Below are positions 9,871-30,758 of a stretch of 64,000 nucleotides of DNA, piece by piece (the first letter of the stretch is position 1; the number at the start of each line of letters is the position of its first letter). Under the pieces are notes generated by a model. It did not search any database and had not been told where the DNA came from. It saw nothing but the letters and a program-made list of their open reading frames with translations. The stretch spans positions 930,001 to 994,000 of the forward strand of contig NZ_CP009552.1 in the NCBI RefSeq assembly GCF_000789255.1, written 5' to 3'. The position numbers and the translations under genes were made by a program. The stretch is from Geoglobus acetivorans (GTDB taxonomy: Archaea; Halobacteriota; Archaeoglobi; Archaeoglobales; Archaeoglobaceae).

Positions 9871-10882
9871 CCTCATTCTTTACTTTTTCCGCTCGTTTAA
9901 ATTCCGGCTCTTTTTTCTTCCCCCACATGGAGATCACATAATCAACGATTTCATGAACATCTCTCGAATGTATCATCCTACCACGTCTAATCAAATCCAT
10001 ATCGACAGAGAGCAATTGGTTGCTTGGGAAAAAGGAAACCGCTGGAGTTCCTAATACGGCCGCCTCTCTCGCCATAGTCCCTGATCCTGTGAGAACTGCT
10101 TTTGCAAAATATGCCAAATCCAAACCATTTAGAGGCCTTTTTGGTATGTGTATTAACTCTTTGCTGTAAGCATATTTCATTATTTCATATGTATTATCTT
10201 CATCTCTCGGGATAAATAAAACAGGAATGTTCTCTTTCGTCAACGCTCTAACCAGATTGGGCACAAGACTCTCCTTGTGAGGCCTTACATACATTGCAGA
10301 AAAAGCTTCGGAACGGATAACAACATAATTGTCCCCGAACGGAATCTTTTCAGGAAAATCTGCATCGGGTGTGTATCCAGATATTGCCAAATGTTCTTTA
10401 TAGCCATTATAGCAAACAAGTTTCCCGGCATCATACTCTTGCACAAACGTGGAATAAGTAACCTTTGGAATAACGATTCTTGTTGCTAATTTTTTAACTT
10501 TTATTTCTAACTCCTGTGAAATTGTTTTCTTACTTAAGAGCTTGAAATCATTGTCCAAGAACAAGATAGAATTTTTTTTCCTGAGATATGATACTGCCAC
10601 GGCCACAGGTAATTCAAGGCACAAGGCTACTCTGAAGCTTGGAATTCTGGTATACAATTGTACGGTCCTAAAAAGCACGGCAAGAGATTTTCTTACAGGG
10701 TCAGAATAATCTCTTAAAACTGGGAAAGCATTAATTCCGAAAGAATCGATTAACTTAATTGTTTCGTCTCTACGTCTTGAAGTGATATACAGGGAGTGTG
10801 AGTCTTCTAATTGTCTGATAAGTGGGTAGAAAAATATCACATCAGCTGGATGCTGCAAGTCTATCCAGATGTCCACACCCAT
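9836..10882 (-). CDS. DUF354 family protein (GT-B fold, epimerase-like)
   Basis: A 348-aa protein starting MGVDIWIDLQHPADVIFFYP, the hallmark N-terminus of archaeal DUF354 proteins, which share the GT-B fold with UDP-GlcNAc 2-epimerase and glycosyltransferases. Further motifs are LYITSRRRDETIKLIDSFG and, near the C-terminus, AKAVLTGSGTMAREAAVLG, the donor-binding region. The function of the family is not established; a role in surface-sugar assembly fits the neighbours. It lies directly downstream of wecB on the same strand, with a gap of about 47 bp. Confidence 0.75.
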   Translation of the reverse strand: MGVDIWIDLQHPADVIFFYPLIRQLEDSHSLYITSRRRDETIKLIDSFGINAFPVLRDYSDPVRKSLAVLFRTVQLYTRIPSFRVALCLELPVAVAVSYLRKKNSILFLDNDFKLLSKKTISQELEIKVKKLATRIVIPKVTYSTFVQEYDAGKLVCYNGYKEHLAISGYTPDADFPEKIPFGDNYVVIRSEAFSAMYVRPHKESLVPNLVRALTKENIPVLFIPRDEDNTYEIMKYAYSKELIHIPKRPLNGLDLAYFAKAVLTGSGTMAREAAVLGTPAVSFFPSNQLLSVDMDLIRRGRMIHSRDVHEIVDYVISMWGKKKEPEFKRAEKVKNEVISIISELTFS

Positions 10883-21516: not shown

Positions 21517-21942
21517 TCACCCTTGTTCCGCCAAAATATTCTTCAGAGATGCAGTATCAATTGCCCTGAATTTACCACTATTCTGTCCATATTCAATCAT
21601 TTTTCTGTCACCAGACCATACAGGAATGCCAAGCTTTAAAGCGAGAGCTATGAATGGTGTATCCCTCTCATCAAACTCCCTTGCAATGGTGTAAGCCTCG
21701 CTGATTTTGTCCCTGTACACTTCAAAGGGAATCACATGAACCAAAGAAAACGCAATAAAGGATCTGAGTTCGAATTCCTCAGAATGTTCCTCAAGCTTGT
21801 TTTTGTGCTTTCTAAATTCCAAGAGACCTTCTTCAGGAAAATAAAGAATAAGGCTGTGATTTCTAATTCCCTCATAGGCCTTTGACCTTTCTCCAGACAC
21901 TACAATCGAAAAGAGAATGTTGCTGTCCACAACAAGCTTCAT
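21517..21942 (-). CDS. PIN-domain ribonuclease (VapC-like toxin)
   Basis: A 141-aa PIN protein starting MKLVVDSNILFSIVVSG (first Asp at residue 6). A middle acidic residue lies in the EEFELRSF region and later acidic residues in AREFDERDTPFIALALKLG and PVWSGDRKM. The arrangement D...E...D..D is that of VapC RNases. Its start overlaps the stop of a small upstream gene by 4 bp, as usual for an antitoxin-toxin pair. The pair lies just outside the integrated element that begins at 22310. Confidence 0.8.
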   Translation of the reverse strand: MKLVVDSNILFSIVVSGERSKAYEGIRNHSLILYFPEEGLLEFRKHKNKLEEHSEEFELRSFIAFSLVHVIPFEVYRDKISEAYTIAREFDERDTPFIALALKLGIPVWSGDRKMIEYGQNSGKFRAIDTASLKNILAEQG

Positions 21943-22166
21943 TCAATCAGACCTTCTTCACCATATCTCATTTTGAGTTCAGACCACACTTCGCTTCTTG
22001 TGGTATCAAATTCTCTGAGAGCTTTCTCCAGATCGAGGGACATCCCTGATTTCAGAGCATCCATGGCCAGTTTTCTGAAAAGCTCCCTGCCCATTCCTTC
22101 TGCTATCCAGAACGTGAGTTTTTTTTCATCCACACTTTCCGGAATTTCAATCATAACCTTTGGCAT
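21939..22166 (-). CDS. VapB-like antitoxin partner
   Basis: A 75-aa protein: PKVMIEIPESVDEKKLTFWIAEGMGRELFRKLAMDALKSG, then SLDLEKALREFDTTRSEVWSEL. The N-terminal strand resembles small archaeal antitoxins that partner PIN toxins, and the acidic, helical C-terminus would wrap the toxin. No strict AbrB or RHH signature is visible. The identification rests mainly on the 4-bp overlap with the PIN gene. The upstream region contains TTTAAA-type promoter sequence near 22170-22195. Confidence 0.65.
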   Translation of the reverse strand: MPKVMIEIPESVDEKKLTFWIAEGMGRELFRKLAMDALKSGMSLDLEKALREFDTTRSEVWSELKMRYGEEGLIE

Positions 22167-22302: not shown

Positions 22303-23160
22303 GTGAAAGCGCCCGGGCCGGGATTTGAACCCGAGGCGCGGGCTCGACAGGGCATCATCAACTATTCTGAAGTCAGAGAGGAGTTTGTGGAATACATAAC
22401 CCAGAGAGTAACTCCTGATACAGCGAGGAGGTATCTCCACTACCTTGATACCTATGTGGGTGAAAAGAAGATCAACACACCCGAGGATATAACCGCTATT
22501 TTCAAGGGTGTGGAGAAGGGGAGAAACTGGCTGGCAAAGTCAATCAGAAACCTCCTCAATTTCTACGTTGAAGCAAAATCAATGGATGAATCTGTGGCGA
22601 ACAAGTTCAAAAAAGCATGCAAGATTGAAAGATCAGGAGTGAGAGCTATTTTCATCAGCGACGATGAGGTCAGGGAAGCATACACCCACACGGTTGCCTC
22701 CCGGAGAAAAGAGGTTCAAATCTTCTTTGAACTACTGGTTTACTCAGGGATCAGGGCAAGCCACGCCGCTGAAATGCTCAAAAACTACGATGAAAACCAG
22801 CTCATCAAAATACCTGAAAAGGGAATTGCCAGGTACCCCATCGTGGAATTCAGCAGGGGCAATAAAAGAGGGTTCTTTGCGTATTTACCACTCGCTTTTG
22901 CGGAGGAGCTGGAGAGAATTAAGAAGCTCGATTACAAGTATCTTGTTGAAGCCATAAGATACAACAGGGTGTCAGCCAACTCAATCAGGAAATGGCATTA
23001 CAACAAGCTGATCGAATCGGGGATAGACACATCCATCGCCGACTTCATCCAGGGAAGGGCACCACAGAGTGTGGGAGCAATGCACTATTTAGCTTCAGCT
23101 CGCCAGGCAGATCAAGCATACTCCAAAGCGGTGGAAGCGATCAAGAGGGTTATCGAATAG
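22303..23160 (+). pseudogene. int(C): C-terminal part of a split SSV-type integrase
   Basis: The frame is open from a GTG at 22303, but only from the repeat onward does it belong to the integrase. Numbered from that GTG it has a core-binding region (about 20-105) and the catalytic domain: Arg151 (YSGIRASH), Lys188 (GNKRGFFAY), Asn226-x-x-Arg229 in place of H-x-x-R, Arg252 (QGRAP) and nucleophile Tyr262 (AMHYLA). Joined through the 42-bp repeat to the N-terminal piece at 30346 it would give 342 aa (336 from the second ATG), close to SSV1 integrase. Split, it is presumably inactive until excision restores the gene. Confidence 0.9.
22310..22351 (+). repeat. Attachment site, left copy (42-bp direct repeat)
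   Basis: Identical over 42 bp to 30524-30565. It corresponds to the tRNA-Asp 3' part, from the 3' side of the anticodon loop to the discriminator base, and is here the remnant copy without the 5' half of a tRNA. It is also coding: in the integrase frame it reads PGPGFEPEARARQ. Flanking bases differ immediately on both sides. Confidence 0.95.
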
Positions 23161-23374
23161 AACCCCTATTCACACATTTTTTGGAATTTCAAGCCATATT
23201 AAGGTATATCTCCCCTTCGAAAATCCGCTCAGAGAAAAAAATAAGAAATGCGAATAATATTCACCACATTATACAATTAATTCTATAACCTCTTTCAGGA
23301 GATAACCTCGATAGATCAATTAATAAAAGAGAAAAATTTTAACTCTCTTCCGCCGCCGTCCAGTGTGGAATAGG

Positions 23375-23659
23375 TCAACCCCTGATCCAGCTGATTATCA
23401 GGAAGCCACCCCATGCCATCAGCCCAACGCTGAGCAACCTGAGAACGGTGATCACAATATCTGTGGTCTGGTTCATGCCGTCCATAATCTTCTGGTTGCT
23501 TCCGGTGTAAACGCTGGTGAATGTGGTTTCGAATTCGCCCACGAGGATGAAGCTGATATAGAGCGATACAATGCCGGCGAGGAGTATAACCACTGCCATG
23601 GTGAGCCCCACTGCCGCCACTTCCTCGTGGAGGAATTCCTTAACCAGGTCGCTTATCAT
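23375..23659 (-). CDS. Small two-helix membrane protein of the integrated element
   Basis: A 94-aa protein with hydrophobic helices at about 16-40 and 67-92, joined by a polar loop (ETTFTSVYTGSNQKIMDGMN). An almost perfect ribosome-binding site, AAGGAGGTGAG, lies 6 nt before the ATG, and a TTTTTTAAGA TATA-like element lies about 40 bp upstream. It therefore has its own promoter and is probably strongly expressed. The family is not recognised. Size and topology resemble small membrane or virion proteins of archaeal viruses and plasmids, but this is only an analogy. Confidence 0.75.
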   Translation of the reverse strand: MISDLVKEFLHEEVAAVGLTMAVVILLAGIVSLYISFILVGEFETTFTSVYTGSNQKIMDGMNQTTDIVITVLRLLSVGLMAWGGFLIISWIRG

Positions 23660-24091
23660 GGCTTCTCACCTCCTTAATTGTTACTTATTTCCGTAACATC
23701 TTAAAAAATTTTCTCCGATAAGATTGCTTAATATGAACAGAAAAGCTTTAATTAAAGAGATAAGCTTAAACCAAACCTGCACAACTATTTTTTTCTATGT
23801 TTGAGGACTATTTAAATCTTCCCCTGTGTGGTCAACTTAACACTTTATACATTCTGTTAAATTGGCAATAATTACCCCCTGAAAAAACAATTTCACAGGT
23901 TTTTCACTTAACAGTTTAACAACTGTTCAGAAATCAGGATAAGTTTAGTCTAAAAAAACAAAAATAAAATAATCTTCAACTTGCATGTTTGTGCAACTGC
24001 ACAACTGCACAAGTAAGCAACCACAAGCACCGGGTGATTGCAGTTTTTTAGGAGAACCTAATTTGAGCAGTTGAAAAAGTAAGATAAAAAA
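23660..24091. other. AT-rich intergenic region of the element with short repeats
   Basis: No gene is seen. The left end holds the promoter of the membrane-protein gene. Around 23985-24015 the motif TTGTGCA / TGCACAA occurs three times (GTGCAACTGCACAACTGCACAAG), an overlapping direct and inverted repeat that could be an operator or replication site. CTTAACA-type motifs recur near 23847 and 23909. Confidence 0.4.
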
Positions 24092-24301
24092 TTAATGAAC
24101 GTCCACGCCCTGTGTTTTACTGTCCCTCTTCCCGTTCAACCTTTCTATCAGAATTAACACGGTCTCGATCACCTTCTCTGCCGGTTCTCCGTCCAATCTG
24201 ACAGCAATTCTTAGACCTCCGCCGTCCTCTGAAACTCCTTGATCAATCTCAATCCATCTGATCGGATATTCCTCAGAAACCTCGATTTCATCATCACACA
24301 T
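24092..24301 (-). CDS. Small acidic protein, unknown function
   Basis: A 69-aa protein, MCDDEIEVSEEYPIRWIEID followed by GLRIAVRLDGEPAEKVIETVLILIERLNGKRD. One strand-rich part and one helix are likely. GAGGTGG lies 6-12 nt upstream of the ATG. It is the last gene of the long minus-strand operon of the element and overlaps the small CxxC frame just upstream. I do not recognise a family. Confidence 0.6.
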   Translation of the reverse strand: MCDDEIEVSEEYPIRWIEIDQGVSEDGGGLRIAVRLDGEPAEKVIETVLILIERLNGKRDSKTQGVDVH

Positions 24302-24389
24302 TCGCCACCACCTCTTTTCTTATGCACAATTCCTGGCACAGCTCAGCACCAACAACCAGCACCTGATCACAGCCAAAACACTCAATCAT
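24294..24389 (-). CDS. Putative 31-aa CxxC microprotein
   Basis: A short frame, MIECFGCDQVLVVGAELCQE then LCIRKEVVANV, with a C-x2-C pair and a C-x3-C pair that could bind one zinc ion. Its start overlaps the end of the preceding gene and its end overlaps the start of the following one by 8 bp, fitting the compact operon. It is very short, and only position and cysteine spacing support it. Confidence 0.35.
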   Translation of the reverse strand: MIECFGCDQVLVVGAELCQELCIRKEVVANV

Positions 24390-24642
24390 CGTCCATCACC
24401 TCAAACTCTTCAATGCGTGGACAGATTGCAGGAAAGCAAACCTTGTGAACCCTTCTGCACAGAATGAAGCCCTGTTCATCCTTCTCGGAGTGTTTGCACC
24501 AGAACCCATGTTCATGCCAGAAAAGAAAAGCCGTTGATGTCATGCTCTTCACCACTTCCCTGTCTTCAATCCTCCCACTCCAACACGGGCGAGGTTCCTT
24601 CCTCTCACGTATTTGCTCCAGGGTGCTGGTTGATACGGGCAT
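24382..24642 (-). CDS. Cysteine-rich small protein, unknown function
   Basis: The longest frame gives 86 aa. A start at the internal ATG 24543 (53 aa, MTSTAFLFWHEHGFWCKHSE) is better supported: GGTGAAG lies just upstream and the previous 49-aa frame ends at 24549. The protein contains CKHSEKDEQGFILC and CFPAIC, a possible zinc site, and ends acidic (EEFEVMDDD). The family is not recognised; small zinc proteins are common on archaeal plasmids and viruses. Confidence 0.55.
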   Translation of the reverse strand: MPVSTSTLEQIRERKEPRPCWSGRIEDREVVKSMTSTAFLFWHEHGFWCKHSEKDEQGFILCRRVHKVCFPAICPRIEEFEVMDDD

Positions 24643-24698
24643 GTAGGAGAGGGCAGTTCACCACATCCAGAATTCCCGCACAGGAAACACCGAATCAT
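24549..24698 (-). CDS. Putative 49-aa zinc-motif protein
   Basis: A frame starting MIRCFLCGNSGCGELPSPTC, with Cys spacing C-x2-C-x4-C-x7-C. A strong ribosome-binding site (GAGGAGGTGG) lies just before the ATG, placed exactly at the stop of the transposase-like gene, and its stop is 5 bp before an ATG of the next gene. It overlaps in another frame the N-terminal extension of the 86-aa reading, so only one of the two can be right. The ribosome-binding site favours this one. Confidence 0.45.
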   Translation of the reverse strand: MIRCFLCGNSGCGELPSPTCPYQPAPWSKYVRGRNLARVGVGGLKTGKW

Positions 24699-24712
24699 CT
24701 CACACCACCTCC

Positions 24713-25126
24713 TCAATACCATAAAACCCGGATTTCTCCTCTCATCTCCTTCAGCTTCGCAAAATACCGGAAAACGTCCAAAACTCTCAGCTTCGAAGCT
24801 ACAAGGTAAATGGTGGAATGGTCGGGTTCTTTTTTTATGTTGAAGCTTAGAGGGCTAAGGTAACCCCAGTTTTCTCTCGCAAATTCCTGAATCTGCCTGA
24901 AACTCCACTCCCTCTTAAGTCCATATAGAATTAAAGCGATGATCAGAAATCGATTGTACGATTTTCTACCACGTGTTCTGATAGGTTTCCTCAGTGGTGC
25001 TGGAAGGTCGAGCTGTCTGACAGCTTCGTATATCTCGACGACCTTCAAAACTTCCTTAGGAATGCCCTCAGAATTCGAGGTTATGTGTTTAAAAAATGGT
25101 GAATTATTGGATTCTGTACCTTTCAT
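24713..25126 (-). CDS. Protein related to transposase N-terminal DNA-binding domains
   Basis: A 137-aa protein. The core, RTRGRKSYNRFLIIALILYG, then REWSFRQIQEFAREN and PDHSTIYLVASKL, matches the pattern of the N-terminal HTH domain of IS5/IS4-like transposases (Arg-Gly-Arg-x-Tyr, a helical bundle, then a Pro-x-x-Ser-Thr motif). No catalytic DDE domain follows, and the gene ends cleanly inside a co-directional operon with overlapping neighbours. It looks like a domesticated or stand-alone DNA-binding protein rather than a broken IS, though a truncated transposase cannot be excluded. Confidence 0.55.
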   Translation of the reverse strand: MKGTESNNSPFFKHITSNSEGIPKEVLKVVEIYEAVRQLDLPAPLRKPIRTRGRKSYNRFLIIALILYGLKREWSFRQIQEFARENWGYLSPLSFNIKKEPDHSTIYLVASKLRVLDVFRYFAKLKEMRGEIRVLWY

Positions 25127-25341
25127 TGTTCATCACCGACCACATGAGCTATTGCGCTTCTCAGTGGGTCAACGACGTTGATCTTGTACACTTTCCCCAT
25201 CATGCCCTGGCAGTGAGACATCCGGTACAGTGTCTTCTTTCGTCCCTCAGCTCCGTGATAGTGGAATCTGCGGCAGAACGGACAGAAAACAACAACCTTT
25301 TTACCGAGCTTCACTCCCTCCACTTCTACAAAATCTTCCAT
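25123..25341 (-). CDS. Small zinc-finger protein
   Basis: A 72-aa protein with CPFCRRFHYHG (about 20-30) and a later SHCQGMMG, giving a C-x2-C-x5-H-x-H / H-C type metal site. Similar CPxC-x-x-x-H-x-HG small proteins are frequent on archaeal plasmids and proviruses; their function is unknown. It overlaps the following gene by 4 bp and lies 5 bp after the preceding one, so it belongs to the replication-protein operon. Confidence 0.65.
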   Translation of the reverse strand: MEDFVEVEGVKLGKKVVVFCPFCRRFHYHGAEGRKKTLYRMSHCQGMMGKVYKINVVDPLRSAIAHVVGDEQ

Positions 25342-25345
25342 ATTC

Positions 25346-25786
25346 TCACCTCCACCAGCTTATACTCCTCCTCAATGGGCGAGTGAGAGGAGCATGCGAG
25401 ATATAATTCTGATACAACCACGAACCGAATTCAGAAACTCCACCTGAGAATGTGGGGGTTCTGTTCTCAAATGAGAGTGTTGAGGTTGGAGGTAACCGCC
25501 CCTGAGGGAGCTGGTAAACCGTAACTGAATCCTCAAAGTCATCATGAAACGCCACGATAACAGGAATGCCCAGCAAATCTCCAAGTTTCTTAAGAGAAAT
25601 TGCCTGAAATGTCTTCATGCGGTGTATGGATGAATGCTTCTCCTCATAGAGGAGAACAAAATTCTCGCCAATCTCGATGATTCCGTCAATGTTCATGATG
25701 TTTACAGCGTGGAGATTATCCCGGTATCGTCTTACTGCCCTCCAGAGCAGGTTTTCTGTAAATTCGCCGCAATGCGGGCAGATCAC
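25346..25786 (-). CDS. Zinc-motif protein with a possible PD-(D/E)XK nuclease core
   Basis: A 146-aa protein. It opens MICPHCGEFTENLLWRAVRR with a CPHC knuckle. A strand-rich region follows, with Asp34 (NIDGIIEIGEN) and Glu48-x-Lys50 (LLYEEKHS), then a helix and strand (AISLKKLGDLLGIPVIVAFHD). The D...ExK spacing and hydrophobic strands resemble the PD-(D/E)XK nuclease or resolvase fold. The C-terminal 50 residues are of low complexity and not typical. The nuclease call is inference. It overlaps the replication-protein stop by 4 bp, which links it to replication of the element. Confidence 0.5.
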   Translation of the reverse strand: MICPHCGEFTENLLWRAVRRYRDNLHAVNIMNIDGIIEIGENFVLLYEEKHSSIHRMKTFQAISLKKLGDLLGIPVIVAFHDDFEDSVTVYQLPQGRLPPTSTLSFENRTPTFSGGVSEFGSWLYQNYISHAPLTRPLRRSISWWR

Positions 25787-28500
25787 TTGGAATCACCCCC
25801 TCCTGAAAACTCCTCAGCAATGCCCGCCCTTATCAGGGGTTCAGCGTTCACCCGTGGCAATGTCACCATTGCATTGGCTTTCAAAAGGTAGGTTTTCCCA
25901 TCAATCCCTAAAAGCTCAGTAACTGGAGGTTCTCTCCTGATTACCACGGTGGTGTAATCTCCAGAATTGCCATTGGTACCGTTGTTACCATTCACTTGCT
26001 TCTTTGTGGCTTTGTGCTTCAGCTTAACGACGATTTTTCCGTCTTTTTTGACCAACTCTATTTCACCGGAATGGACGAGAGCTTCGAGGGCTTCACTGAC
26101 TTCTCTTAAGGGCTTATGCAGGTACCTGAGAAGATCCCTCCGGGTTAACTCACCACCGTGGCGTTTCAATGTTCCCAAAATCTTTTCCTGCAAATTGCGT
26201 TCCTCGTCCCACTCCAGCTCCTTAATCAGGTTCACCGCATATGGCAATAGGTACTCATCCACCACTCTGCAAGCTTCCTGGATGTATTCGAGCGTGATGA
26301 TGGGTTCGAACTCTTTGTCCCCCAGGGTGAAAAGCATCGCCAACTTCACAGCGTAGAGGTAGTACCTCCCCAGCAGTGTGGCGAGAATCTGGTTCTTTGT
26401 CCGGATAACTTCCTCCTCCCATCTTCTCTGCCATTCCTGATAAAACTCGAAAGCTTCAGGGTCAAAGTCAATCCTTATGTCTTCTTTGGAATCAACCACT
26501 CTCATGTGGATTTCTTTGAGGAATTCGCAAACCTCCTCGAACGCTTCAAGGTCTTCCTTAGTCGCCAGTCCGAATGGGCGCCACTCCTTTTCATACTGAG
26601 GGTTCACGTAAATGAACCTCGCGAGAAAGCCCGACTCAAAGTCCAGAGTGGTGGAATGCTTTTTGAAGACCGCAGGGGTCATGGCAAGCCAGATAGTCAC
26701 GTAGGGATCAGTGATCTCGAACTCCTCTTTTCTCAGCGTCCTGTAATAGTTCTCTCCATCGTAAAGAATGCAGAGAAAATCCCTGAGGTCGATTGCATAC
26801 TGTTTTTTGAGCGTGGCGAGTAATTTTCCACCCTCGGGGTGCCAGATCGCTCCCGTACTTTTCTGGGAGAGAATCTGAATCAGAGACTCCGGAGAGAAGT
26901 CGTGCGGCAGGAAAAACCCCCTGATCCCCACAAATTCAACCACGGTTTTTGCGATTTTCATGGCGGTGGACTTCCTGGAGATTGTGGAATCGCCGAGGGT
27001 CATCGCCCATACGTTGGGGTAAACGCGCTCATGGAGGAAGTCAACGTAAACTCTCCTCCCCGCAATCCGTGAGAGAATCGAAATTGCCCCTATGAAGTGA
27101 TATTCTTTATAAGCGTCAGTTCTCCGTTCAGCCATTCTCATAAACTTCGTTATAAAGTTGTCTTCTGGTAAATTGAGCTCAATGGGTGGTATTTCATACT
27201 CCCAAGCTTCGTCAGCGGTCGTGGACGATTCTTGAAGTTTCTCGCTAAGTTTAACGAGGTGATCGAAGGGGTCACTTTCGCCACTTTCGGGATCGTCATC
27301 ATTCATGAGTGTGTTAAAGTCATCAACGGGTTTTGGAAGCTCTATCCTTGCTCCATATTTTTCCTTCGCGATTCTCAGAACCTTCTTAAACAGTTCACCA
27401 CGTAGAGTCCCTTTTCTGGCGTCTTTGCAGTCTATCAAGCCCTCGAGAACGGCGATCAATTGTAGAACGCCACCGCCTGATGGCTTTCCATCCACTGCGC
27501 AATCCGCTCTAAAACAGTTCCACCTGTTGTTGTCGGGATCAACCCAGAAATTCCGTCCTGTGGTGCTTCCATGGACAGGGTGAGCGCCTACAAGTTCATC
27601 GCCAGATGGTTTAAGGTTCTCTTCGGGATCATATCCCCATTTCTTTAGAACGTCTAAGATGTTAAGCCCGAAGTCAGTATGGGAAAGCTCTCTGGCTTCC
27701 TTAATACCTTCTACTATTGATTTGAGTTTTTTGAGAAGTTCATCCGCATTTATCGGTGGTTCCTCTGAGCTGTATAGAATTCTACAAGTATTTTTCAAAG
27801 CAAATTTATTGTTCAGAGTTCCAGCAAGTCTTATAATTCTCGGTGGATCGATTAAGCGATCGCCACCGAGGAGATCAGCGAGATATCCCTGGATTTCACC
27901 CCATACTTCCGGCGTGGTTTCATTTAGCTTGATATATATGTGGTATCCCCAGCCAGAATCTATGATTAAAGAAGGTTTCAAACCGAGTGGTTCAATGCGA
28001 TCATACAGCCACAGGATGAAATCTGAAAATTTGGGCTTCCGGATTTCATAAACCTTTTTTCCCTGCTTTACAATCGTAACTTTATTCGATTTCCAGAATC
28101 CCTTTTCTGCGAGAGCGATCTTAACTTCATCGCTCAGATTGTCCACGGTGATTTCCTTCTTGAAATCTTTGTCCACGACGGCGAAGTGGCAGGTTCTTAT
28201 ATGCTCCTCCTTGCCCCCTCCTCTTTCCGGCTTTACTGCTCTCGGATTCACGCCCACATACACGTCGGATTCCCTGAGCTTTTCGGTGTTCTCTTTCACC
28301 CACTGGAGGGTGGGATTAATGGAATCAAAGAATTTAACCACTGCTTTGTTGTCTTTGAACGCCCGGAGTTCAATGAACCCTTCAACCCCTTCGAAAAGGG
28401 TTCTGAGGTGTGTTTCAGTATCCGCAATATTTATATTTTTTAAAACCTCACTTTCTTTTGGGCTTTCGTAGCTTTCGGGGTGGTTGGTTGGTGATTCCAC
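25783..28500 (-). CDS. Primase-polymerase / DUF3987-like helicase replication protein
   Basis: A 905-aa protein in modules. Residues 100-250 resemble an archaeo-eukaryotic primase/PrimPol core: FAVVDKD (107-113, metal Asp), SGWGYHIYIKL (182-192) and DPPRIIRLAGTLNNK (218-232). A CHC2-like zinc region follows (His307, His310, Cys329, Cys334). From about 440 to 740 is a DUF3987-type ATPase with an atypical P-loop, GDSTISRKST (503-512), and SGFLARFIYV (623-632). The C-terminus (about 770-840) has a winged-helix-like LTRRDLLRYLHKPLREVSEA. It should initiate and drive replication of the element. It heads the long minus-strand operon after the RHH gene. Confidence 0.8.
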   Translation of the reverse strand: MESPTNHPESYESPKESEVLKNINIADTETHLRTLFEGVEGFIELRAFKDNKAVVKFFDSINPTLQWVKENTEKLRESDVYVGVNPRAVKPERGGGKEEHIRTCHFAVVDKDFKKEITVDNLSDEVKIALAEKGFWKSNKVTIVKQGKKVYEIRKPKFSDFILWLYDRIEPLGLKPSLIIDSGWGYHIYIKLNETTPEVWGEIQGYLADLLGGDRLIDPPRIIRLAGTLNNKFALKNTCRILYSSEEPPINADELLKKLKSIVEGIKEARELSHTDFGLNILDVLKKWGYDPEENLKPSGDELVGAHPVHGSTTGRNFWVDPDNNRWNCFRADCAVDGKPSGGGVLQLIAVLEGLIDCKDARKGTLRGELFKKVLRIAKEKYGARIELPKPVDDFNTLMNDDDPESGESDPFDHLVKLSEKLQESSTTADEAWEYEIPPIELNLPEDNFITKFMRMAERRTDAYKEYHFIGAISILSRIAGRRVYVDFLHERVYPNVWAMTLGDSTISRKSTAMKIAKTVVEFVGIRGFFLPHDFSPESLIQILSQKSTGAIWHPEGGKLLATLKKQYAIDLRDFLCILYDGENYYRTLRKEEFEITDPYVTIWLAMTPAVFKKHSTTLDFESGFLARFIYVNPQYEKEWRPFGLATKEDLEAFEEVCEFLKEIHMRVVDSKEDIRIDFDPEAFEFYQEWQRRWEEEVIRTKNQILATLLGRYYLYAVKLAMLFTLGDKEFEPIITLEYIQEACRVVDEYLLPYAVNLIKELEWDEERNLQEKILGTLKRHGGELTRRDLLRYLHKPLREVSEALEALVHSGEIELVKKDGKIVVKLKHKATKKQVNGNNGTNGNSGDYTTVVIRREPPVTELLGIDGKTYLLKANAMVTLPRVNAEPLIRAGIAEEFSGGGDSK

Positions 28501-28507
28501 CGATCAA

Positions 28508-28675
28508 TCACCTCGCATCGCTATTAATTTTTTCAAAAAACCCCAGGCTGGCAATGTAGCTGTCAATTGCCCTTCTCACAAGTTCACTCTCTGAGATTCC
28601 TAACTTCTCCGCACCCCATCTAATCTTCTCCCGATACTTGGGGGACATGCTGAAAGTCAAACACACCGTCACCAT
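28508..28675 (-). CDS. Ribbon-helix-helix regulator
   Basis: A protein of about 55 aa: VTVCLTFSMSPKYREKIRWG, then GISESELVRRAIDSYIA, the strand-helix-helix pattern of CopG/Arc repressors. The ATG at 28675 is preferred because GGTGATG stands just before it; a TTG at 28699 would add eight residues and put this site inside the gene. It lies 8 bp upstream of the replication-protein gene and probably controls copy number or its own promoter. Confidence 0.7.
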   Translation of the reverse strand: MVTVCLTFSMSPKYREKIRWGAEKLGISESELVRRAIDSYIASLGFFEKINSDAR

Positions 28676-28689
28676 TGTCATCACCTTTT

Positions 28690-28830
28690 TTTCACTCAAT
28701 AAGATTATTGATTGAATTACTATTAAATCTTTCGGGATTATTCTACAAAATACTTACTAAATTCACAAGTGAGTAAAACTTATAAATGTGAGTAATTCAC
28801 TCAATATTGGGGGTGATTGTATTGAGTAAA
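28690..28830. promoter_or_regulatory. Divergent promoter and operator region
   Basis: Between the RHH gene (left) and the winged-helix gene (right) the motif TGAGTRA/TYACTCA occurs at least four times: about 28692-28699, 28769-28776, 28788-28805 (as the near-palindrome GTGAGTAATTCACTCA) and 28821-28828. TATA-like elements are CTTATAAATG (28779-28788, rightward) and GATTTAATAG (near 28724, leftward). The palindrome sits directly downstream of the rightward TATA box, as expected for a repressor site. Confidence 0.6.
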
Positions 28831-29490
28831 TTCAGCATACAGCAGGAAATCCTAAGAAGCCCAGGTGTGAGATTCAACGAACTAATGGAAAGAACTGAAT
28901 TGTCGCATCAGAGTGTATCAAGAGCGTTAAAACAGCTTGAACAGAGAGGTTTGATTTACCACGTGGAGGATGAGGAAGATCGCAGAAAAAAGAGATATTT
29001 CGTGAGAGAAGATAATTTGATCGTTATCTCTATTGATGAAGTTGTCGAGAGAGTCAGAGAGGAATTAAGCAAAGCAGGGGAAGACCTCACACCTGAGGAG
29101 GAAGGGCGGTTAAGGGAGTTTCTACTCAAGGTTGTCCGACCTGCGATTGTCGAGAAGCTAAAACATGATGGTTTCGAAGACACCGACCCACGATTTTTTG
29201 TCGAAATTCTCCTCCACGGTGTGGTGGCTCTCGCTGAATTAACAAAACCAATGAAAGGTGTTTCGAAAAAGAGAATGAAAAAAGTTGTTACAGCGTTGAA
29301 GCCACAGTTTTATGAGTTGGTGGGGGCTGACGTGGGTGTTTTGATAGAGGGACTGTCTATATTGGGTGATGGGTTTATTAGGAAAATGGCGAAGATGGAA
29401 AGTTTCCAGAAATCGATAATAAACCAGTTTATGCGAGCGTTTAGGTTCCTGAGTGATGAGAGAGTTATCAGAGAAATGTTAGGGAATTAA
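28822..29490 (+). CDS. Winged-helix (MarR-like) transcription regulator of the element
   Basis: A 222-aa protein starting with TTG at 28822, chosen because GGGGGTGAT lies 5 nt upstream. The N-terminal 70 residues form a winged helix: LRSPGVRFNELMERTELSHQ, SVSRALKQLEQRGLIY, then a charged wing (EDEEDRRKKRYFV). The remaining 150 residues are helical with no motif I know and could be a dimerisation or ligand domain. It diverges from the replication operon across a repeat-rich operator, so it may be the main repressor of the element. Confidence 0.75.
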   Translation: MSKFSIQQEILRSPGVRFNELMERTELSHQSVSRALKQLEQRGLIYHVEDEEDRRKKRYFVREDNLIVISIDEVVERVREELSKAGEDLTPEEEGRLREFLLKVVRPAIVEKLKHDGFEDTDPRFFVEILLHGVVALAELTKPMKGVSKKRMKKVVTALKPQFYELVGADVGVLIEGLSILGDGFIRKMAKMESFQKSIINQFMRAFRFLSDERVIREMLGN

Positions 29491-29878
29491 TGGTTTATTT
29501 TCAGTTAGGGGTTCAGAACCCACCACTGTAACATCTTTTTTAACAGCAATTTTCGATGACTTTTCCTTTATCTTCAACACGCTTGAGGGGTTCTTGACCC
29601 ACCGAGCGACCAAGCTTGATATTAGTATTGATTGCTCCCATTCGCCTACCTTCCTTTTGCCTCTCCCTCGCTTTCTTAGCTTCGATTATCTTCTTCGCCT
29701 TCTTTACTGTTTTATCTGATATTCTCAACCCTTTTTCCCGTGCTTTTTTAACTGCAATTTCGATGGCTTTGCCCTTATCTTCAAAGAATGTGGGTACATG
29801 ACCCACCTTTTTTTCGGAAGGTATTCTTGGATTATTTATTATGGCTTGTGCTTTCTGTCTCTCTCTCGCCTTCTTAGC
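29479..29878 (-). pseudogene. Decayed Lys/Arg-rich repeat protein gene
   Basis: A continuous minus-strand frame from about 29878, but without a good start before GTG at 29806, repeats two modules: IEAKKARERQK (twice) and EDKGK[A/V]IE (twice), preceded by VG-x-x-P. At the second EDKGKVIE one extra A (GAAAATTGC against GAAATTGC in the other copy) shifts the frame to a stop at 29540. Removing it extends the protein as IAVKKDVTVVG to a stop at 29479. Both the lost 5' end and the frameshift suggest a decaying, partly duplicated gene. Function unknown. Confidence 0.55.
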
Positions 29879-29949
29879 TTCAATCTCTGCAAGTTATGAA
29901 ACTCTGGCACACAGTAGCAAGGGCGGGGATTGGATAGATTAGAGATTAA

Positions 29950-30105
29950 CCACGTGTCGGTGACGTCACATTGTCGAAAGTGTCACATTGGAGAATATAT
30001 AAATGAACTTTGTGGTAATTTTATAAAAATCCTCCAATTTTCATTTATATAGTTTCAGATGTGACAGTGCGACACTTGCGACACCCGCGACACTTGCGAC
30101 AATCC
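29950..30105. other. Candidate replication origin of the element (iterons and inverted repeat)
   Basis: A non-coding, repeat-dense stretch. It has a palindrome GTGACGTCAC (29960-29969), GTCACATTG twice (29965-29973 and 29982-29990), a 26-bp inverted repeat with 22 matches (29982-30007 against 30040-30065) whose arms contain TATATAAATGA, and a 15-bp tandem GCGACACTTGCGACA (30069-30083 and 30087-30101, 18-bp period). The AT-rich core flanked by short iterons is typical of plasmid origins; a regulatory function is the alternative. Confidence 0.5.
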
Positions 30106-30345
30106 CGTGGCTAAAACTCCACATTAACCCCGCACCACTTCCACCCATGAGAACCTTCTCAAAAATGAGAAACCAAATTGATTTCATACGGGTTAATTTA
30201 ATCCGATCTATAATCCAAATTACAAAATCACCATCGCCACCTTTTTTATAATACCCCTCCTGCTCCAATAGCCCATCTGTGGCAGGTTTCACCCACCCTA
30301 TAACCACACCATGCACACACCACACCCAAAAATTTAACTTTTTTC

Positions 30346-30565
30346 ATGCGCATAAAACTCAATATGGGACGCCCAAACCAGAACAAAACCCGTGTGAACC
30401 TGACAATAAACAGGGATATATTGGAAGCTTCCCGCAAATACATCCCCAACCTGTCCGATTTCGTCGAAAAGAAGCTTCTGGAGTTTCTGCAGTTCGTAAA
30501 CCACCCGATAAAAGGATTTGCCACGCCCGGGCCGGGATTTGAACCCGAGGCGCGGGCTCGACAGG
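30346..30565 (+). pseudogene. int(N): N-terminal part of the split integrase
   Basis: From ATG 30346 (or 30364) the frame encodes GRPNQNKTRVNLTINRDILE and SRKYIPNLSDFVEKKLLEFL, a ribbon-helix-helix-like N-terminal DNA-binding domain, then HPIKGFATPGPGFEP as it enters the 42-bp repeat. Reading beyond the repeat goes antisense through the tRNA-Asp gene and is not integrase. In the circular form the repeat joins it in frame to int(C) at 22352. The end of the integrase-derived part is taken as the end of the repeat. Confidence 0.85.
30524..30565 (+). repeat. Attachment site, tRNA copy (42-bp direct repeat)
   Basis: The second copy of the 42-bp repeat at 22310. It forms the 3' portion of the complete tRNA-Asp gene on the minus strand and at the same time the end of the int(N) frame on the plus strand. 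Recombination between the copies would release an 8214-bp circle and leave one intact tRNA gene. Confidence 0.95.
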
Positions 30566-30598
30566 CCCGCATGTTAGGCCTGGCTACACCACCCGGGC
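30524..30598 (-). tRNA. tRNA-Asp (GUC)
   Basis: A 75-nt cloverleaf on the minus strand. Acceptor stem GCCCGGG pairs with CCCGGGC, discriminator G, no encoded CCA. The D stem is GTGT/ACAT with GG in the loop, the anticodon stem CGGGC/GCCCG with loop CTGTCGA (anticodon GTC), and the T arm has TTCAAAT. No intron is visible. A TTAAAAA TATA-like element lies about 40 bp upstream. Its 3' part is the integration target of the element at 22310-30565. Confidence 0.93.
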
Positions 30599-30758
30599 AT
30601 CAGAAGCTGTTTCTCTCTCAGTCAAGCAGGGTTTTTAAGCATTTTGGTCAGCGAACAGGCAGCCATGCATATGGGAGTGGGAGTTTCAGAACAGAACGGA
30701 CATGCTGCCAAGACAGATTTTCGATTTGTTTAAATACAGCATTGCAGGAGTTTTACCC

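Follow-up and report, generated by a model that had tools for sequence, protein, structure and literature searches.

A Gins51-Type B-Domain on the Replication Protein of an SSV-Type Integrated Element in Geoglobus acetivorans

The Element and Its Integration Site

The stretch of DNA analysed here, called the window, is 64,000 base pairs (bp) long and comes from the hyperthermophilic archaeon Geoglobus acetivorans (contig NZ_CP009552.1, positions 930,001 to 994,000). It contains an integrated element that lies at a gene for tRNA-Asp, carries the two parts of a split integrase at its ends, and encodes a single large replication protein (Rep). On strong sequence homology, the last domain of this Rep is the B-domain of Gins51. 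An initial annotation had recognized the element. Its account of the gene content missed the Gins51-type module, which we judge to be the most interesting part.

The ends of the element are formed by two attachment (att) copies and the target gene.

22310 to 22351, no strand: left att copy, a 42-bp perfect repeat equal to the 3' part of tRNA-Asp (identical to 30524-30565; present once in the relative with the empty site)
30524 to 30565, no strand: right att copy, 42 bp, within the intact tRNA gene (repeat search)
30524 to 30599, minus strand: tRNA-Asp(GTC), intact, the integration target (ARAGORN, 30523-30599; uninterrupted in the congeners L051-L055)

The 42-bp repeat occurs in the window as two identical copies spaced 8,214 bp apart, as had been annotated from the sequence. 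The right copy spans the tRNA-Asp(GTC) gene from the discriminator base to the anticodon loop. In the closest congener (genome G001), the flanking genes are 98-99% identical to those of the window, the 42-mer is present once, within an uninterrupted tRNA-Asp, and the left flank of the window runs directly into the right flank. Since G001 has an intact tRNA-Asp with contiguous flanks, the insertion of the 8,214-bp element into tRNA-Asp(GTC) is directly observed and not merely inferred. The tRNA-Asp gene is also uninterrupted in four other congeners.

Just beyond the left end, at 21517-22166, lies a gene pair that by eye resembles a VapBC toxin-antitoxin system. This stretch is unaligned in the sister species G001.

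The Replication Protein and Its Gins51 B-Domain

The Rep and the module at its end have the following coordinates.

25783 to 28500, minus strand: Rep, 905 amino acids (aa), with a primase-type N-terminal part, a zinc-ribbon region, a DUF3987 helicase core and the Gins51-B module (PF13148 5e-30; match to the primase-polymerase of plasmid pXZ1, 27% identity, 1.6e-10)
25807 to 25956, minus strand: C-terminal Gins51 B-domain module of Rep, residues 849-898 (sequence, profile and fold comparisons)

The match to the pXZ1 primase-polymerase covers Rep residues 61-246, and residues 42-232 match the Rep of a second G. acetivorans element at locus L069. The zinc-ribbon region, at approximately residues 297-401, is shared with the DnaG-type Reps of two related elements, L028 and L032. 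The DUF3987 core is a predicted helicase (PMC5862659).

The last 55 or so residues of Rep carry the Gins51 B-domain motif. In a profile comparison with Archaeoglobi Gins51, the module is matched with 98.6% probability, an E-value of 8e-16 and 47% identity. Conversely, when a profile was built from five sequences, all of them taken from mobile elements, it recovered host proteins the size of Gins51 in most of the 119 genomes searched. A phmmer search of the PDB with the module stretch alone returned three matches, all PSF1 and all with weak E-values, and a three-sequence module profile gave no GINS match in the PDB.

Structure prediction points the same way. The first 19 Foldseek matches of the module model (pLDDT 91) are all GINS subunits, with E-values that are weak because the domain is short. 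The top matches are structures of Gins51 in complex with GAN, the archaeal Cdc45 (5ghr and 5ghs). Because two of the 13 rows in the alignment behind the model are host Gins51, the fold comparison is not wholly independent evidence, unlike the sequence comparisons, which are independent.

The replicator is a new variant, in which a Gins51 B-domain is joined to a DUF3987 Rep of the primase-polymerase kind. GINS has not been found in viral genomes, according to Makarova 2012, and the literature that was searched holds no report of Gins51 modules on mobile elements. No relatives turned up when viral contigs were scanned with the Rep or with the Gins51-B alignment. A scan of genome contigs returned only the contig of L027, a related element, and nothing further.

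A Portable Module on Unrelated Replicators

The same module can be found in different arrangements at other Archaeoglobi loci. It ends the DnaG-type Rep of L028, an AAA+ protein beside a separate primase in L036, and an SF3/D5 helicase in L037. In the BrxL-type ATPases of L038, L042 and L043 it is found close to the C-terminus. Finally, it stands at the N-terminus of HUH Reps in L040, L044 and L046, which belong to Archaeoglobi pleomorphic viruses and their relatives. The Reps of pGT5, pTN1 and pTP1 match residues 218-574 of the HUH Rep only and are without the module.

The module may also be a small separate protein, as in L069, L045 and L041. In L069 it is a 64-aa gene that overlaps the stop codon of Rep and is followed by a nuclease gene, the same place that the fusion has in the window element. 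Once the module is removed, most pairs of replicator bodies have no detectable similarity.

Host Gins51 resembles the module in profile and in predicted fold, as does the C-terminal domain of the primase subunit PriS (PMC2861644). Host Gins51 also has an A-domain, whereas the mobile-element module sits on primases and helicases without one. In about 60 genomes outside Archaeoglobi, nearly all profile matches are of Gins51 length; use of the module by mobile elements may therefore be particular to Archaeoglobi, although divergent cases would be missed by this search.

Two loci with the module deserve separate mention. L040:3478-5340 (G000:C1:1191477-1193339) is the HUH Rep of Geoglobus acetivorans pleomorphic virus 1 (GaPV1), which starts with a Gins51 B-domain. 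L037:5396-8567 (G031:C17) lies on a likely viral contig that bears a PCNA-like gene near the module-ended SF3/D5 helicase.

Proposed Mechanism

For Thermococcus kodakarensis, two binding partners of the Gins51 B-domain are known, RecJ/GAN and the small PolD subunit, and the domain thereby connects the polymerase with the helicase (PMC12035558, PMC10989965, PMC5484177). By homology, the most likely role of the module in the window Rep is to tether host PolD and/or GAN to the replication fork of the element. A joint explanation, which we hold with good confidence, is that the window contains an integrated plasmid-like element that replicates from an iteron site by means of its own primase-helicase Rep, with the Gins51 B-domain recruiting host PolD/GAN. 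The iterons belong to a candidate origin.

29981 to 30101, no strand: candidate replication origin, consisting of a 43-nucleotide imperfect inverted repeat (29981-30066) followed by 9-bp iterons, TGCGACACT (30068-30101)

At the equivalent position, the related element L027 has 9-bp iterons, TGACAAAAA.

The process would start with a free circle of 8,214 bp that encodes a complete tyrosine recombinase of 336-342 aa, with the attP site inside the recombinase gene. Recombination with tRNA-Asp would restore the tRNA gene and cut the integrase gene into an N-terminal part, int(N), and a C-terminal part, int(C). With its integrase split, the element would then be locked in place until a compatible integrase acts in trans. 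The anatomy and the insertion are observed; the recombination reaction is proposed by analogy with SSV1, pTN3 and pT26-2.

For replication, Rep would melt the iteron-bearing origin near int(N), prime, and unwind. Its Gins51 B-domain would bind host PolD (through the DP1 subunit) and/or GAN, and so bring the host polymerase to a fork unwound by Rep in place of the host MCM-GINS helicase. A putative nuclease of the PD-(D/E)XK kind, encoded next to Rep, may resolve replication or recombination intermediates.

Several points weigh against this explanation. The L027 Rep (826 aa), whose helicase is 53-56% identical to that of the window Rep, is without the module, and so is the L032 Rep; not every member, therefore, needs the module. 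Archaeal PriS is capped by a domain that shares the module's fold and has an unclear role there (PMC2861644), and the function of the module could thus differ from that of a tether. The binding of PolD or GAN is deduced from homology, and the circular form, excision and replication from sequence.

Another model would make the module a structural or DNA-binding cap, as it possibly is in PriS, or a decoy that titrates PolD/GAN off the host fork, in either case with no tether. The fold is found on the PriS of many archaea, where support for a zinc-binding hairpin has been suggested (PMC2861644), and a module that is a small separate protein in three loci would suit a cap or a decoy. However, with the module profile, proteins of Gins51 length are detected throughout the searched archaeal genomes, and, of the solved structures, Gins51 bound to GAN comes closest. 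The module is also joined to several unrelated replicator types, which an enzyme-specific cap would not explain. We regard the cap or decoy as a tentative alternative, and a rather unlikely one.

If the tether is correct, it may extend beyond this element. Archaeoglobi mobile elements would then use a portable Gins51-type tag as a common handle on the host replisome (PolD and/or GAN). The tag would be fused to unrelated replicators (primase-polymerase/DUF3987, DnaG-type, SF3/D5, BrxL-type ATPase, AAA+ and HUH nickase) or made as a separate subunit, each replicator replacing the MCM-GINS step and keeping the host polymerase. We hold this generalization to be slightly more likely than not. How small archaeal plasmids and viruses that have no polymerase obtain the replicative polymerase of their host is poorly understood, and a module of 50 residues that in the host is the platform for PolD and GAN, and that sits on several unrelated mobile replicators, offers a concrete answer that can be tested. 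It would also be a minimal handle with which to study polymerase recruitment separately from GINS and MCM.

The Split Integrase

The two parts of the integrase lie at opposite ends of the element.

22352 to 23160, plus strand: int(C), the catalytic part of an SSV-type tyrosine recombinase; the open frame reaches back through the repeat to 22303 (PF16795 1.3e-46; phrog_5127 7e-49; SSV1 integrase structures)
30346 to 30565, plus strand: int(N), a ribbon-helix-helix (CcdA-like) N-terminal domain and an att-encoded linker (PF07362 3.9e-5, above the cut-off; 54-60% identical to int(N) of L027 and L028)

The int(N) frame starts at ATG 30346 or 30364, int(C) stops at 23160, and both enter the repeat in the same phase. 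Joining int(N), one repeat copy and int(C) gives 342 aa (336 from the second ATG) with a terminal stop only, while the other two frames contain 14 and 16 stops. The tyrosine recombinase of about 336-342 aa that the initial annotation had read through the repeat is thus recovered. The catalytic domain of SSV1 integrase is matched by int(C) at 4e-7 (phmmer; 3uxu, 3vcf, 4dks), and the alignment places the catalytic R, K, R, H and Y opposite their counterparts. Together with the att repeat and the empty site in the sister species, this in-frame split of an SSV-family recombinase bears out the earlier proposal of SSV-type integration.

Among plasmids, int(C) has its closest matches in pT26-2 and pGE2, with 37% identity to the integrases of both. 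The pGE2 integrase, which is of the pT26-2 type, begins with a stretch that by eye looks ribbon-helix-helix-like. The window integrase is, by sequence, a pT26-2-like suicidal (SSV-type) integrase. Its suicidal, class I integration geometry is not new, because suicidal integrases of the pT26-2 type have already been reported from Archaeoglobales (Badel 2020, as cited in a review, PMC8371274). In its integration, the element adds a member to a kind already known; its novelty lies in the replicator.

The catalytic parts of related integrases fall into different families. The window int(C) is 43% identical to that of L038. No similarity was found between it and int(C) of L027 or L028, and a profile comparison gave a probability of 1.3%. 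The second catalytic domain is of the PF00589/phrog_1 type rather than PF16795. On sequence comparison, one kind of int(N) thus occurs with two catalytic domains that are unrelated to each other. The parts are joined at the att site, and domain exchange has occurred there.

A first reading, in which the window integrase was the chimera, was dropped, as pGE2 too pairs a ribbon-helix-helix-like N-terminus with PF16795. Because of this pairing in pGE2, it is more likely L027, L028 and L069, and not the window element, that carry the swapped catalytic domain. The claim is limited to an exchange between two families of integrase catalytic domains. That chimeric integrases arise by recombination between integrated elements is a proposal of Badel and colleagues, as given in the review (PMC8371274); the exchange described here crosses from PF16795 to a domain of the PF00589/phrog_1 type. 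Since the review ties suicidal integrases to PF16795 (PMC8371274), those of L027, L028, L032 and L069 appear to be suicidal without belonging to that family. An int(N) found with two unrelated catalytic domains is relevant to the way in which suicidal integrases come to differ and acquire new targets.

L070:3239-7212 (G005:C172), at tRNA-Gln, could be an intermediate or a relic of such an exchange: there, an int(N) adjoins remnants of two different int(C) families.

Related Elements

Searching other genomes for the same gene set at tRNA genes, a check proposed in the initial annotation, finds related elements at tRNA-Val, tRNA-Pro, tRNA-His and tRNA-Arg. L027 lies at tRNA-Val (48-bp repeat), L028 at tRNA-Pro (45-bp repeat), L032 at tRNA-His (44-bp repeat), and the more divergent L038 at tRNA-Arg (45-bp repeat). 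The common plan from this whole-genome search of relatives is int(C), small open reading frames (ORFs), a nuclease-like gene of 142-146 aa beside a large Rep, regulators, a winged-helix gene, int(N), and the tRNA gene. No 142-146 aa nuclease-like gene was found in L038. In all four elements, int(N) and int(C) are in one phase through the repeat; L038 was read from two translations, and L027, L028 and L032 were joined by script.

Beside its BrxL-type replicator, L038 encodes a 174-aa protein with an HxH motif (KPHIHALLL) at 10118-10642. It has no Pfam match and is possibly a rolling-circle Rep.

The G. acetivorans genome holds further elements of this kind. A second one, L069:8575-17103 (G000:C1:1138574-1147102), lies at tRNA-Val(TAC) and has an exact tRNA repeat of only 19 bp. 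Beyond its int(C) end there is a degenerate int(N), which suggests an earlier integration at the same site. A third, L029:7140-18522 (G000:C1:1735139-1746521), lies at tRNA-Glu(TTC), with a 44-bp perfect repeat, a length of 11.3 kb and an SSV-type int(C). There is also a 1.4-kb remnant at tRNA-Lys (L031), and partnerless copies of int(N) are found at tRNA-Gly, tRNA-Pro and tRNA-Ala.

Such decayed relatives in the same genome, and the splitting of the integrase itself, would suit a model in which the window element is a dead relic: integration would be irreversible, replication would have ended, and the genes would be kept by chance or serve the host. However, the two att copies do not differ, the frames of int(N), int(C) and the 905-aa Rep are open, the joined integrase frame is intact, and the insertion is absent from the nearest congener. 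Identical att copies, open genes and an empty site in the congener fit a recent integration. Excision in trans by a related integrase is moreover documented for pTN3/TKV4 (PMC8371274). A dead relic is accordingly possible but unlikely, and the plasmid-like element with a replicating Rep is preferred.

In two Geoglobus species, int(N) frames without an adjoining element stand at tRNA-Gly(CCC) (L066:10776-11216 and L072:8775-9008) and are 88-92% identical to the window int(N). These may represent a retained scar or a reused DNA-binding protein. DNA matches of 28-40 bp in other genomes were considered as CRISPR spacers and set aside as too weak to call.

Comparison with Known Plasmids and Viruses

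The Sulfolobus plasmid pXZ1 is similar in size (approximately 7-8 kb) and likewise has an SSV-type integrase, a small DNA-binding protein, and a single large primase-polymerase Rep. Besides the Rep match over residues 61-246, int(C) is 33% identical. The C-terminal half of the window Rep differs, being DUF3987 and Gins51-B, and the other small genes have no match. Of the set that marks the pRN/pXZ1-type plasmids (primase-polymerase Rep, integrase and small DNA-binding protein), the N-terminal part of Rep and int(C) are thus matched in pXZ1, and the rest is not.

The plasmids pT26-2 and pGE2 have integrases that share the ribbon-helix-helix-like N-terminal stretch (in pGE2, by eye), the att-encoded linker, and the PF16795 domain. 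The integrase is all that pT26-2 has in common with the element: in a tblastn search of 12 element proteins against all of pT26-2, int(C) gave the sole match, and pT26-2 is 21.6 kb long compared with 8.2 kb. The pT26-2 plasmid family is defined by seven core genes (PMC6972569). These defining genes were looked for by sequence and are absent, so that the element is not of this family.

Elements with an arCOG07809 primase-polymerase and an arCOG09441 PD-(D/E)XK protein of the Holliday junction resolvase type (Makarova 2014, PMC4158269) are alike in their small size and in having a primase-polymerase, helicase and zinc protein, a nuclease, and an integrase. In the available part of that paper, no Gins51 module is described for them.

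Among virus records, the best matches of int(C) are pleomorphic proviruses of Archaeoglobus. The Archaeoglobi pleomorphic viruses (AvPV1, ApPV1 and GaPV1; Thalassapleoviridae) have int(C) that is 34-41% identical and share a CopG-type protein, and the HUH Rep of GaPV1 has the same Gins51-B module at its N-terminus. However, their spike, VP3 and packaging genes have no counterpart in the window element, in which neither a VP4-like fusion protein nor a VP3-like membrane protein was matched. Of the Fuselloviridae markers (the VP1/VP3 capsid genes and the other SSV1 genes), only int(C) matches, and the Pfam and PHROGs scans found no structural protein. With these defining genes sought by sequence and absent, the element is outside both Fuselloviridae and Thalassapleoviridae.

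These comparisons bear on whether the element could be a small provirus or satellite virus. A 94-aa protein with two predicted helices might be a capsid-type protein of spindle-shaped viruses, or a helper, for instance the G. acetivorans pleomorphic virus, might package the element. Integrases of the SSV family are common in spindle-shaped and pleomorphic viruses, and int(C) is closest to Archaeoglobus pleomorphic proviruses among virus records. Small two-helix proteins are also encoded in L028 and L038. A pleomorphic provirus is present in the same genome, which encodes the GaPV1 Rep at 100% identity over 621 aa; GaPV1 has strain SBH6 as its host, and this match identifies the genome as that of G. 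acetivorans SBH6. Against this, the Pfam and PHROGs scans of the element proteins found no capsid, packaging ATPase, VP2 or fusion protein. Beyond int(C), nothing in the element matches SSV1, and only the ribbon-helix-helix protein matches ApPV1. For the 94-aa protein, the search gave no viral match, the counterparts in L028 and L038 share only 16-21% identity with it, and its identification as a capsid protein was discarded as unsupported. A provirus or satellite is therefore improbable.

By sequence, the element comes closest to a small integrative plasmid of the pXZ1 kind. Of the two options in the earlier description, an undescribed plasmid or virus of the Archaeoglobales, the gene content points to the plasmid.

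Other Genes of the Element

The remaining genes lie on both sides of Rep.

23375 to 23659, minus strand: 94-aa protein with two hydrophobic stretches (hydropathy; no viral match; small two-helix proteins in L028 and L038 only 16-21% identical)
24092 to 24301, minus strand: 69-aa ORF that is also conserved in relatives (L071 and L073, 43% identity)
24382 to 24642, minus strand: 86-aa ORF, no match (Pfam search)
24713 to 25126, minus strand: 137-aa protein with a transposase-type DUF772 region (PF05598 6e-4, below the cut-off; 74% and 88% identical in L071 and L073, beside the same neighbour)
25123 to 25341, minus strand: 72-aa ORF, no firm match (Pfam search)
25346 to 25786, minus strand: 146-aa putative PD-(D/E)XK nuclease directly after Rep (invariant D34, E48xK50 and Q61 in five elements)
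28508 to 28699, minus strand: 63-aa ribbon-helix-helix (CopG-type) regulator (PF01402 4.7e-4, at the cut-off; 50% identical in L038 and L043; match in ApPV1)
28807 to 29490, plus strand: 227-aa winged-helix (MarR-type) protein (PF12802 2.7e-13; helix-turn-helix-type genes at the same place in L027, L028 and L069)

An insertion sequence was considered for 24713-25126 and ruled out, since the gene is kept in place in two related elements, L071 and L073. A low-confidence model of the 146-aa protein gives weak matches to folds of the Hjc type.

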